DNA of 64,000 nucleotides from Pontibacillus chungwhensis. GTDB lineage: Bacteria > Bacillota > Bacilli > Bacillales > BH030062. This document shows positions 54,214 to 58,556 of this stretch, piece by piece; positions within the stretch are counted from its first letter, which is position 1; every line of letters starts with the position of its first letter. The position numbers and the translations under genes are program-made. The notes under the pieces were generated by a model. It was not told the origin of the DNA and did not search any database. It saw only the letters and a program-made list of their open reading frames with translations. The stretch covers positions 2,666,001 to 2,730,000 of the forward strand of contig NZ_CP126446.1 of assembly GCF_030166655.1 (NCBI RefSeq), read 5' to 3'.

Positions 54214-56106
54214 TCAAGCCCTTTGCTTTTGTTCTGGTAATATTTTTTTTATATTTGTAACGATATTTTCAGATGTAAGGCCAATTTCTTGATAAAGTTC
54301 TTTTACGCTACCATGCTCAATAAAGCGATCAGGAACACCCATGCGGTGGATTACCTGATTGTAGTATTGTTGTTCTTCTGCGAATTCTAACACTCCACTA
54401 CCGAAGCCGCCTTTTAAAACAGCTTCTTCAATTGTAAGTATAGGCATGGAACGCTTCATTAAGTCATGGAGCATCGCTTCATCCATCGGCTTAATAAACC
54501 TTGCATTAATGACCTTAACTGAAATACCTTGCTTTCTTAGTTCTTCGCTCGCCTTAAGAGCCATAGGAATGGTGGTTCCAAATGTAAGAATCGCTGCGTC
54601 TGTACCTTCTTGAAGTACCTCCCAGGATCCAATCGGAAGCGCCTTAAGCTCCTCATCCATTTCTACGCCTAGTCCATTTCCTCTTGGATAACGAACAGCA
54701 ATCGGACCATCGTCATATTCAAACGCGGTATGAACCATATGCTGACCTTCATTCTCATCTTTCGGCATCATAATGGTCATATTCGGAAGGTGCCGTAGAA
54801 AGGCGATATCAAACACACCCTGGTGCGTTTCACCGTCAGCTCCGACTAAACCTGCACGGTCAATACCAAACGTTACGTTTAGATTTTGACGACACACGTC
54901 GTGTACCAATTGATCATAGCCACGTTGCATAAAGGTAGAATAAATGGCAAGGAACGGCTTCATACCTTGTGTTGCGATTCCGGCAGCCACTGTCGTCGCA
55001 TGTTGTTCTGCTATCCCCACATCAAATAGTCGATCAGGAAATTCTTCTCCGAATTTCTCAAGCTTTGATCCAAGAATCATAGCTGGGGTAATGGCAGCAA
55101 TACGGTTGTCCGTTCGCGCTTTCTTCCTGAGTGTCTCACTAATGACTTCACTCCACGCAGGCGGTGCATCCGTTGGCTTAATTTTCTCTCCGGATTCAAT
55201 CTTATAAGGTCCTACTCCATGCCACTTATCCTTTTGATCACTCTCAGCAGGATGATAACCTTTCCCTTTCTGAGTCATAACGTGGACAAGGACTGGTCCT
55301 TCAGTCTTTTTAGCATACTGTAGGTTCTCCATTAAATCTTCAAAGTTATGGCCGTCTACAGGTCCATAATACGTAAAACCGAGCTCCTCAAAGAACATCC
55401 CAGGTAGCATGAAGTATTTCATGCTATCTTTCAATCGTTCAGCTGCATTCGCAAGCTTCCCGCCTACTGCTGGAATACGCTTTAACACCCATTCCATTTC
55501 ATCTTTGACCCAGTGATATTTACGAGCACTTCTCATACGCCCTAATACATTATGAAGGGCGCCTACATTCTGAGCAATCGACATTTCATTGTCATTTAAG
55601 ATTACAGTAACGTTCTTCTTCTCATCACCAATATGGTTTAAAGCTTCTAGAGCCATACCACCCGTAAGAGCGCCATCTCCAATAATCGGGAGGATTGAAT
55701 GGTCTTCACCCTTTAAATCTCGAGCAATGGCCATACCCATTGCCGCAGAAAGAGATGTAGAGCTATGCCCTGTTTCCCAAACATCATGCTCACTTTCACA
55801 TCGTTTCGGGAAACCACATAACCCTTGATATTGACGTAATGTATCAAATTGGCCTGTTCGACCCGTTAAGATTTTATGAATATAGGATTGATGTCCCACA
55901 TCGAATAATATTTTATCTTTAGGACTGTCATAAAGCTTATGTAGAGCCAAAGTAAGCTCCACAACCCCTAAATTAGCACCTAAATGTCCACCCGTTACAG
56001 ATAATTTTTCAATGAGAAAGTTACGGACAGAAGCCGCAAACTTTTCGAGATCTTCATTAGAATATTCTTTTAAGAAGGATGGGTCCTTGATAGTATTAAG
56101 ATCCAT
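54214..56106 (-). CDS. dxs: 1-deoxy-D-xylulose-5-phosphate synthase
   Basis: 630 residues, transketolase-like. Thiamine-diphosphate motif [18 protein letters not shown] near 154, [11 protein letters not shown], catalytic HGVGPYK and the pyrimidine-binding [16 protein letters not shown] (in part). First step of the MEP isoprenoid pathway, which feeds IspA encoded on the other side of the OLE RNA. The ATG at 56106 has AGGCGAG. Confidence 0.96.
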
Positions 56107-56125: not shown

Positions 56126-56722
56126 TCATGATTTTCTAGAGGATTTTTTACCCCTCGGTAAAATAGTAATGTTTAACTTTCTTTCCACAAGTGAAATAAT
56201 TCGAGCTGCGAAGAAAATGATATCAGTTGACGCGCGAATCGCAAAATACTTCCCTAGCGCCTTGCCCCCAACAGTTACCGCTGCTACTATACTTGTAAAA
56301 ATCACTGAGATGACCAAGTTGGTAGTCGAATCCTCTGAATGTCCAAGAATAAACGTTAAGCGCAAAACAACCATCGTTGCAGCTGTTCCACTTATAACGC
56401 CAGCGATATCTCCGATTACGTCATTACAGAAGCTCGCGAAACGGTCCGCATTTCTGACAATAAGAATCGCCTCTTTGGAACCGTTTACTTTTTCAGCTGC
56501 CATAGCATGAAAAGGAACTTCATCTGCAGCCGTTGCCGCTATACCTAGCATATCGAAGAGTACTCCAATTGATACAATAACGAAAACGATAATGATCCCT
56601 AACAGATAGTACACATCATCTAATATATAATTGGAGATAACTGTAAAAATAGCCGCTAACACAAACGTGATAACGGCGATCCCCAAGCTAAATTTTAAAG
56701 AATTTTTTAGTTGTGTCTTCAT
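56126..56722 (-). CDS. oapA: OLE-associated membrane protein OapA
   Basis: 198 residues with four predicted membrane helices (about 11-33, 37-60, 104-126 and 136-162) and a soluble loop (61-103) with DEVPFHAMAAEKV and NADRFASFCNDVIGDIAG; the C-terminus is basic (RGKKSSRKS). The gene lies directly downstream of the OLE RNA and upstream of dxs, the documented arrangement of oapA in OLE-carrying Firmicutes. OapA binds OLE RNA at the membrane and is required for its localisation; loss impairs growth in ethanol, cold and Mg2+ stress in Bacillus halodurans (established for the family). The soluble part is reminiscent of CNNM/CorC transporters, which is only an impression. ATG at 56722 follows GAGGTTAATCC. 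Confidence 0.92.
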   Translation of the reverse strand: MKTQLKNSLKFSLGIAVITFVLAAIFTVISNYILDDVYYLLGIIIVFVIVSIGVLFDMLGIAATAADEVPFHAMAAEKVNGSKEAILIVRNADRFASFCNDVIGDIAGVISGTAATMVVLRLTFILGHSEDSTTNLVISVIFTSIVAAVTVGGKALGKYFAIRASTDIIFFAARIISLVERKLNITILPRGKKSSRKS

Positions 56723-56789
56723 GGATTAACCTCTATATTTTAAGTTCATTCACGTATATGTATGAAGGTCAGGATGGTCACCTAAAAGA

Positions 56790-57372
56790 TAAAAACTGCG
56801 GCTTAGGTCCAGTAGGTTTTCCCAAGCGAGTACCATGTGTTGCCACATCGGCGGTTCCCCTTTAAACTCACCTTAGCACCGTCACCGATTGCTAGACTGG
56901 ATTGCCACTTAGTCCGCACTATAATCCCTTTCAGGTGTCATGGAACAGTCTAGGAGATTTCCTCGACAGCCTTTGGCCGCTCCTTAGCCTCTTTTGCAGC
57001 GCTGATTTCATATGGTCGGGTAAGCGATCGAATAGTGGCCATCTATCTTTCGCTCAAAAGCCATAATCCCCTCAGAGCCACTCAAGGCAGGCTACGCTGT
57101 GGACCGTTCTTCCCAAAACAATCTCACAGGTTCATACCCCATTTCATAGCAGACGTTTGAGAACAGCCTCCTACAAATATGGGCCTCCGCGGAAGCAGGG
57201 TCAACGCCCACATGCCATTGTGGATCGCCCCGCAACCTTAACTCCCAGCATCGACCCAAGGCTGGGCGCCTCAAGCCAACACAAGGAACTTCATCGATGT
57301 GCCCTTTGGCGGATTTTTAGGCCCGCCTTCAGGAACGGAGGGCCGACTAGAATACTGCACCATCCTGTTTGT
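56790..57372 (-). ncRNA. ole: OLE RNA (ornate, large, extremophilic)
   Basis: A 700-base stretch without a credible gene lies between ispA and oapA. On the - strand it is rich in short complementary segments, and its position (xseB-ispA-OLE-oapA-dxs) equals the one described for OLE RNA in alkaliphilic and halophilic Firmicutes. Pairing examples: CGGCCCTCC with GGAGGCGGGCC-like segments near the 5' end (57330-57345) and GGCCACTATTCG region against CGACCATATG; the 3' end runs to GACCTAAGCCGCAGTTTTT at about 56790. It is large (about 580-600 bases from the promoter), near the known size of about 610. Open frames across it (57092-57274 and 57157-57444) run both ways and lack ribosome binding sites. 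The exact ends are inferred. Confidence 0.88.
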
Positions 57373-57378
57373 ATTTCT

Positions 57379-57407
57379 AATATACCACATTCATTCCAAT
57401 CCCTCAA
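57379..57407 (-). promoter_or_regulatory. Candidate promoter of the OLE RNA
   Basis: On the - strand TTGAGG, 17-base spacer, TATATT, just after the ispA stop codon. Transcription would start near 57372, at the beginning of the structured region, allowing OLE to be made independently of the upstream operon. Confidence 0.55.
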
Positions 57408-57424
57408 TCCACATGTACTGACAA

Positions 57425-58300
57425 TTAATTCTTTCGATCGCTAATGTAATCAATCAGATCCTCTAAAAGGGAACTATCGACGCCAGCTTCCTTAAGAGCA
57501 GCCCTTGCTCGCTCTGCGTACTTCTGTTTGTGCTCGATCGCTCCTTCAAGACCTAACAATTGAGGATATGTACTTTTATGATTTGTTACATCACTACCTA
57601 CTGGCTTCCCGATCTCGCCTTCTTCGCCAATAACATCTAAAATGTCATCCTGGACTTGAAATAACAAACCTATATAGTTTGCGTATGTCTCAATTTGGCG
57701 TAATTGTGTCGGATTGGCCCCTCCAATAAAGGCGCCTGCTACAGCTGAGAATCGTAGCAATTCACCGGTTTTGTGACGGTGTATGGCTTCTAGCTCTTCA
57801 AGGGAGAGTGTTTTCTCTTCTGCCTCCATATCAAGCATCTGACCAGCTACCATTCCTTCAGCACCACTGGCCTTCGATAATTCACGTGTTAGGAATACTT
57901 TTTCACGGTCTGTCAGATGGTCATTAGCTGTAATAACGTGAAAGGCTGCCGTTAGTAATCCGTCCCCAGCTAATATAGCTGTTGCTTCATCAAACTGCAT
58001 ATGATTCGTAGGCTTTCCTCTTCTCACGTCATCATCGTCCATCGCAGGAAGATCATCATGGATAAGAGAATACGTATGAATCATCTCTACCGCACAAGCA
58101 GGAGCGAGCGCTCGATCTTCCATACCACCAAACGCTTCATTGGCAGCCAATAATAAAACAGGGCGAATTCGCTTGCCCCCTGCTTCAATGGAGTATAGGA
58201 TGGACTCTCTCAGTTTTTCAGGAATTTGCATAGAATAGATCTGTTGCTCCATCTGCTGGTTTAACTTAGAGCGCTTATTCTCCAAAAAGGTCCCTAGCAT
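57425..58300 (-). CDS. ispA: Geranylgeranyl/farnesyl diphosphate synthase
   Basis: 291 residues from the ATG at 58300 (AAGGTG just before it); a GTG at 58306 with GGAGGAAG eight bases before is equally possible. First Asp-rich motif SLIHDDLPAMDDDDVRRG, second QVQDDILDV, and the TGELLRFSA helix. Condenses isopentenyl diphosphate to farnesyl diphosphate. Gene follows xseB by a few bases. Confidence 0.94.
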   Translation of the reverse strand: MLGTFLENKRSKLNQQMEQQIYSMQIPEKLRESILYSIEAGGKRIRPVLLLAANEAFGGMEDRALAPACAVEMIHTYSLIHDDLPAMDDDDVRRGKPTNHMQFDEATAILAGDGLLTAAFHVITANDHLTDREKVFLTRELSKASGAEGMVAGQMLDMEAEEKTLSLEELEAIHRHKTGELLRFSAVAGAFIGGANPTQLRQIETYANYIGLLFQVQDDILDVIGEEGEIGKPVGSDVTNHKSTYPQLLGLEGAIEHKQKYAERARAALKEAGVDSSLLEDLIDYISDRKN

Positions 58301-58307
58301 ATGCACC

Positions 58308-58556
58308 TTATTCTTCCTCCTCCACTGAGAAAGACTCAAATTCTCCCTGATCATTCATAATTTGTTGCATCTGTTTTTCAACATTATTCAGTTTGTCGTT
58401 GCAAACCTTAGAAAGCTTCATGCCATCCTGATAATAAGTAATAGCTTTCTCTAAAGGGACATCTCCCTCTTCTAACTTTTCTACGATCTGCTCAAGCTGC
58501 TTCATAGCTTCTTCAAAACTCAATTCTTCTTGTTGTGCTTGCTCTTTTTCACTCAT
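58308..58556 (-). CDS. xseB: Exodeoxyribonuclease VII small subunit
   Basis: 82 residues, coiled-coil. Pattern [26 protein letters not shown] is the family hallmark (shown in part), with [15 protein letters not shown] after it. Forms exonuclease VII with XseA. The 5' end overlaps xseA by 8 bases. Confidence 0.95.

Follow-up and report, generated by a model that had tools for sequence, protein, structure and literature searches.

A 64,000-nucleotide stretch of the Pontibacillus chungwhensis genome (contig NZ_CP126446.1; hereafter the window) carries a full-length gene for OLE RNA next to the gene for its membrane protein partner, OapA. OLE is among the largest bacterial RNAs, and its biochemical role is unknown. 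The Rfam OLE model (RF01071) matches the minus strand of the window at 57379-56758 with a score of 522.2 bits, where the gathering score is 50, and with E 2.7e-150 for the whole window; chance is excluded as the source of the match. What does OapA do where OLE is absent? OapA homologues without detectable OLE retain the invariant residues of a CNNM-like core and have mostly lost a loop motif that is common beside OLE. On the basis of this pattern, we propose, with about as much reason to accept the idea as to doubt it, that OapA would be a CNNM-type membrane core (D57, D101xxxD105, K154 and K158) able to work without RNA. The basic loop that connects helices 2 and 3 (residues 66-84) would be where OLE docks, with control of OapA as the probable purpose, and the loss of OLE would leave the core in place and the loop to decay. 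The features central to this proposal are as follows.

56758..57379, minus strand: OLE RNA gene (RF01071), full length; covariance model 522.2 bits, single genomic copy
56126..56722, minus strand: oapA, OLE-associated membrane protein OapA, 198 residues; adjoins ole
56471..56527, minus strand: proposed OLE-docking loop, oapA segment for residues 66-84; links the predicted helices at 39-65 and at 92-125
56408..56422, minus strand: DxxxD motif, oapA segment for residues 101-105; both aspartates invariant in 142 of 142 OapA proteins compared

OapA genes without OLE

The functions of OLE and OapA have hitherto been inseparable by comparison because the two almost always occur together, as reported in the accessible part of a published survey (PMC11332333). 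Published text even suggests that one may never be found without the other. A literature search that covered few subscription papers and no supplements found no published account of OapA without OLE or of OapA paralogues.

Six metagenome-assembled genomes, five titled Christensenellaceae and one Ornithoclostridium, encode an OapA homologue that is flanked by homologues of ispA and dxs, and no OLE was found in any of the six, with every candidate scored. A survey of 297 genomes of this Christensenellales-type order found OapA in 169 genomes and OLE in 134; 131 have both, 38 have only OapA, three have only OLE and 125 have neither. The order-wide OLE scan used stricter filters and scored three candidates per genome, and single misses are possible in these counts. 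All 33 OapA-only genomes with a listed position were read (G565, G573, G600, G664 and G694, without a position, were left out). Permissive Rfam scans, which covered 29 of the 33 loci together and the other four, from the near relatives G408, G410, G412 and G416, in a separate scan, detected a single OLE, at the edge of a contig in G704, and this genome was reassigned to the OLE-bearing group. The G519 gene is also at a contig edge; its case is undecidable, and it was left out. No OLE was found by the permissive scans at the other 31 of the 33 placed loci, 20 of which lie between ispA and dxs homologues. The addition of two more OLE-free metagenome-assembled genomes (G411 and G414; loci L075 and L078) gives 33 OLE-free loci for comparison. 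In these loci, the distance from the previous long open reading frame (ORF) to the aligned OapA start is 30-338 bases (median 98), which is too short for OLE, and both IspA and Dxs homologues flank OapA in 22.

Eight OLE-free oapA genes (L115, L118-L122, L124 and L125) precede an infC/rplT-like pair, a neighbour type checked with Pfam on four example proteins, and five of the eight follow a proS-like gene. Sub-threshold L20_leader matches lie after oapA at L118, L120, L121, L122, L124 and L125 (36-49 bits, cut-off 58.7). In G671 and G609, OLE matches are located on two contigs of one genome; either the assembly mixes strains or these genomes may have a genuine second copy.

The core and the loop of OapA

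The window OapA is not unusual: it resembles known OapA proteins in its position beside ole, its 198-residue length, its DxxxD motif and its weak CNNM similarity. Its structure model contains four long predicted helices, in agreement with the four-helix OapA-type protein recognized by the initial annotation, and is CNNM-like in fold resemblance only. The Pfam CNNM model (PF01595) scores 20.9 bits, under the family cut-off of 28.4, and unlike the CNNM, CorB and MpfA Mg2+ transporters, the protein has no CBS or CorC_HlyC match at E 0.1. A sequence search of the OapA profile against solved chains returned two insignificant matches only (E 1.3 and 3.1).

We compared 142 OapA proteins, comprising 100 associated with OLE (42 from Bacillales, 54 from the Christensenellales-type order and four others), nine paralogues and the 33 OLE-free proteins. 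The 54 Christensenellales-type OLE-bearing rows were chosen from the 131 genomes with both genes plus G704, and most of them are among the better-scoring ones. Eleven of 153 extracted sequences were left out: two broken copies (L056 and L068), six duplicates (L061, L062 and L081-L084), one edge case (L123), an extra copy in the OLE-bearing G467 (L149) and one from a genome with OLE elsewhere (L079). D57, D101, D105, G112, K154 and K158 are invariant in all 142 proteins, including the 33 OLE-free ones, and the CNNM-like fold is retained in the OLE-free OapAs.

The loop behaves differently. We defined the loop motif as a small residue at 73, M74 and a basic residue at 78, with mild demands at 81 and 83. 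Among the OLE-bearing proteins, 41 of the 42 from Bacillales and 52 of the 54 from the Christensenellales-type order have this motif (93/96 together), as do one of the four from other lineages and eight of the nine paralogues, which are encoded in OLE-bearing genomes; only one of the 33 OLE-free OapAs has it. P70 follows a similar course except in the paralogues (42/42 Bacillales, 52/54 Christensenellales-type, 1/4 others, 2/9 paralogues and 3/33 OLE-free). Single loop residues fade less evenly, with basic residues at 83 and 90 kept in 18 and 15 of the 33 OLE-free proteins, respectively. The exceptions, by the motif pattern used for the tree described below, are L114, which is OLE-free with the loop and has odd neighbours, and the OLE-bearing L053, L070, L071, L073, L148 and L151, which have no loop motif. 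Basic 94 and C99 were rejected as docking residues, given that each is kept in 32 of the 33 OLE-free proteins and in none of the nine paralogues. The case for an RNA-independent core and an OLE-docking loop rests on this difference between invariant core residues and a loop motif that OLE-free OapAs have mostly lost.

How independent are these losses? We built an OapA tree from which the loop columns were excluded; on it, the OLE-free label requires six changes (shuffled mean 27.6), at least three of which are forced by starred branches. Three independent pairs have support, and in an average of 2.5 of these 3 the loop and OLE are kept or lost together, with no pair in the opposite direction. 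The independent events are too few for the loop-OLE association to reach significance.

OapA might nevertheless be obligately tied to OLE, in which case OLE would have been missed in the OLE-free genomes, through incomplete assembly or failure to recognise it, and lineage drift would account for the loop difference. The named OLE-free genomes are metagenome assemblies whose completeness is not stated, and the order-wide scan was limited to three candidates per genome under stricter filters. OLE lies on a different contig from oapA in some genomes (G413 and G415), the 33 placed loci included the OLE piece of G704 and the undecidable G519, and the three genomes with OLE but no OapA hit may also reflect incompleteness. 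However, the permissive scans were negative at 31 placed loci, the space before OapA is short in all 33 OLE-free loci, the six genomes in which every candidate was scored yielded no OLE, and the absence of OLE is clustered on the OapA tree. We regard an obligate tie as unlikely. A second alternative, that the locus was taken over by another CNNM-like family to which the OLE-free proteins belong, draws on the fact that two of five scanned OLE-free OapAs exceed the Pfam CNNM cut-off of 28.4 (31.4 and 29.7 bits), whereas the window OapA falls below it. This replacement is highly improbable because OLE-free and OLE-bearing OapAs are interleaved on the tree, share the invariant D57, DxxxD, K154 and K158, and are flanked by the same genes at 22 of 33 loci.

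OapA paralogues and losses in Bacillales relatives

OLE is present in 42 of 61 genomes from the genus, family and order of the window strain, the window's genome included. The OapA profile (E 0.01) finds a match in all 42 and in one of the 19 OLE-free genomes, G046. There, an oapA relic with several stops lies between ispA and dxs (L057:6917-7240); it is backed by a stretch of 30-34 residues, and the best hits of five OapA queries range from 1.4e-7 to 0.021. The relic marks a recent loss of the ole-oapA pair. A candidate for decayed OLE remains in G046 was indistinguishable from a shuffled control and was rejected.

Some relatives encode a second OapA. In G003 and G004, of the same genus as the window strain, an intact second OapA lies far from OLE and is 49 and 43% identical to the window OapA, respectively. 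Across 397 genomes of the order, five paralogues stand out at 299-392 bits, and the next match scores 236; a scan of named genomes added paralogues in Virgibacillus, Gracilibacillus, Rossellomorea and one genome labelled Roseburia. All of the paralogue genomes tested carry OLE elsewhere (6/6 and 7/7 in two sets that share two genomes and include broken copies, G041 in the first and L068 in the second). No OLE was found beside the paralogues by Rfam in E-value mode at L054-L057 or in gathering mode at L061-L066 and L068, and the only OLE found in the genomes of the L058-L060 paralogues lies elsewhere; on these scans, we rejected the idea that the paralogues have a further OLE, or a divergent one, next to them.

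Broken paralogue copies occur at L056:6423-7095 (G041) and L068 (Virgibacillus chiguensis). In two different families, a paralogue lies beside a mercury-resistance cluster with OLE elsewhere in the genome: L054:6969-7562 in G003, where Pfam identifies MerR, MerF and a MerA-like HMA-domain flavin oxidoreductase, and L058:6873-7457 in G158 (Alkalihalobacillus sp. CinArs1, L061), where the oxidoreductase has like neighbours. The record titled Roseburia sp. 1XD42-34 (L063) carries an OapA paralogue of the Bacillales type, the genome has a full-length OLE match (529.9 bits), and the title probably misnames the organism.

Taken with the paralogues, the proposal can be extended, and we hold this extension tentatively, at a little short of an even chance. 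OapA may be an RNA-independent CNNM-type ion-transport core coupled to OLE via one cytoplasmic loop (66-84). Several lineages would have uncoupled the two, losing the RNA between ispA and oapA while the core residues stayed invariant and the loop decayed. Others would keep a second loop-bearing OapA (two beside a mer cluster) that may share the cell's single OLE. If true, OLE would regulate an ion transporter from which it can be detached and would not be an obligate partner. OapA without detectable OLE and paralogues without nearby OLE thus offer a way to separate the role of each part. The comparison singles out loop 66-84 for docking and D57, D101, D105, K154 and K158 for the core, and the OLE-free OapAs, most of which have no 66-84 loop motif, are natural proteins for complementation.

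The window locus and its partners

The OLE match spans positions 1-616 of the 616-position model and is the sole Rfam match at gathering score in the 64-kb window; OLE is present as a single copy in the whole genome (4.17 Mb, two contigs). The initial annotation had placed OLE RNA between ispA and dxs, in a gap without a credible gene, from gene order and gap size, and had looked to the minus-strand covariance score and to a conserved protein in the gap as the points that could speak against it. Both points turned out in favour of OLE, and the order ispA-OLE-oapA-dxs is as described. The locus is very probably a bona fide ole-oapA gene pair and an ordinary new member of the known OLE family. 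Its surroundings contain the following features.

57425..58354, minus strand: ispA, polyprenyl synthetase, flanking; listed ORF, PF00348 4.1e-61 (residues from 57428-58321)
54214..56106, minus strand: dxs, DXP synthase, flanking; PF13292, 5.5e-118
57379..57407, minus strand: promoter-like site TTGAGG-17-TATATT, second hexamer preceded by TG; 9/12 plus TG, directly upstream of OLE

The true start of ispA is probably further in than the listed ORF start. The gene order reads xseA-xseB-ispA-OLE-oapA-dxs-tlyA, where xseA, xseB and tlyA are names that we assign from our own reading of the sequences. The ispA stop (57425) and the oapA start (56722) are separated by 702 bases, and this gap holds, wholly or mostly, four ORFs of at least 50 residues (50, 54 and 95 on the plus strand; 60 on the minus strand).

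Among the 42 OLE RNAs, the window copy shares 62.3-98.4% identity with the remaining 41. When 23 OLE RNAs, the window's among them, are aligned, 81 of 177 predicted pairs show at least one pair-preserving double change; the pairs were predicted afresh on this alignment and differ from the published OLE drawing. The accessible part of a review (PMC12265935) describes the P4, P5.1, P6.1 and P9 loops as dimer contacts. By our own assignment of loop letters from the Rfam alignment and that review, at the sequence level, the P4 A-rich, P5.1 and P6.1 loops and the P9 palindrome of the window copy read CUAAAAA, CGCCCAG, CAAUGGCAUG and UGGCCA. CUAAAAA and the P6.1 loop are kept in all 42 RNAs, the P5.1 loop in 40 and GGCC in the P9 region in 38. 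The OapB site at P13 and the OapC k-turn are covered by the full-length model match only; a simple sequence pattern for the OapB site (CGG.GACG), found in 21 of the 42 RNAs, was dropped as uninformative.

The promoter-like site ends at 57379, where the model starts. Such sites are more frequent in the scanned kilobase than in shuffles (6 observed, 1.7 expected), and a site scoring at least 10/13 lies within 75 bases before the conserved GGUGC at 38 of 42 OLE loci, the window's included (mean score in those 75 bases 10.5 vs 7.6 in letter shuffles). The site is in line with earlier work and is not new, given that the accessible text of PMC9723947 already describes the B. halodurans OLE as having its own promoter.

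The partner proteins OapB and OapC, for which the initial annotation advised a check, are also encoded in the genome. The ORF at L037:4381-4716, between genes that we take to be map and infA, matches the solved OLE-associated protein B (7k9b, 1.8e-32, 96 residues). This position found OapB better than the KOW model, which matched three places, none of them OapB; two of these we read as L24 and NusG. The OapC candidate, an 83-residue protein encoded beside a gene that is presumably rpsL, is of the YbxF type (3v7e, YbxF, 3.1e-24 vs 3v7q, YlxQ, 3.2e-4; PRK13602 above cut-off) and by sequence belongs to the YbxF branch of L7Ae proteins, not to YlxQ. A bS21 gene is present as well.

The locus thus shares with the H. 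halodurans OLE ribonucleoprotein complex the full-length class, the gene order, OapA, OapB, OapC and bS21, and an own promoter-like site, and it differs in two respects. First, P6 of the window OLE is CCCUGCUUCC and has no CCUCCU anti-Shine-Dalgarno mimic (part of the bS21 site), whereas a perfect mimic is reported for H. halodurans in the accessible part of PMC12054373. The mimic occurs in only three of the 42 OLE RNAs (L007, L030 and L050), and the core GGGCGAU..GGCAUG..GACC is kept in 41, including the window's. A rare mimic and a conserved core fit mutants M1-M3 of the same source, whose altered mimic letters avoid the most conserved positions and which bS21 still binds. Second, the window's genome encodes two MpfA-type proteins (CNNM, CBS and CorC_HlyC, with the domain order checked for these two), and the available part of PMC11332333 states that H. 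halodurans has no mpfA and also reports an OLE-MpfA anticorrelation. In our 61 genomes, this anticorrelation is a tendency only: CorC_HlyC copies average 2.0 in the 42 OLE-bearing and 2.8 in the 19 OLE-free genomes (one-sided p 0.001, or 0.004 with one genome per family and no further kinship correction), and every genome has at least one. G011 and G057, with the same genus label, carry four CorC_HlyC genes each; one has OLE and OapA, and the other has neither, which is a genus-level loss without a change in CorC_HlyC copy number.

OLE could be present in the strain and no longer functional, given its two full MpfA-type transporters, a type thought to replace OLE in other species, and the absent bS21-site mimic. 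Neither feature marks a dead copy, however, because both are common among OLE-bearing relatives: 27 of 42 have at least two CorC_HlyC genes, and 39 of 42 RNAs are without the mimic. With a full-length OLE score, intact contact loops where tested and intact OapA, OapB and OapC, a defunct OLE is very improbable. The reading of the gap as a conserved small protein with an incidental RNA match, for which two of the four gap ORFs (50-95 residues) fell outside the Pfam scan, can be dismissed: the two longest (60 and 95 residues) have no Pfam match at E 0.1, the OLE match is 522 bits, loops and compensatory pairs are conserved, and stem tips vary very unevenly in length among relatives.

With the window, the known OLE loci grow by one sound member, from a genus that is probably halophilic and cultivable. 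The identity of the RNA, its conserved pairing, the partner genes, the promoter-like site and the CNNM-like model of OapA have direct support here, and since the parts sought are present and intact, we infer that the strain has a working OLE complex, as initially suggested. In such a complex, OLE would be transcribed from its own promoter and/or within the ispA-dxs operon, would fold into the OLE structure and would dock on OapA at the cell membrane, where OapB, OapC and bS21 may join as further partners. As has been shown for Halalkalibacterium halodurans, the complex would aid the cell under stress from Mg2+, alcohol, cold or poor carbon sources.

Directly after the bS21 gene lies a YqeY gene (L036:1036-1482; PF09424, 185 bits). 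According to the accessible part of PMC12054373, bS21 and YqeY genes often share an operon, and a preliminary binding of YqeY to OLE is reported.
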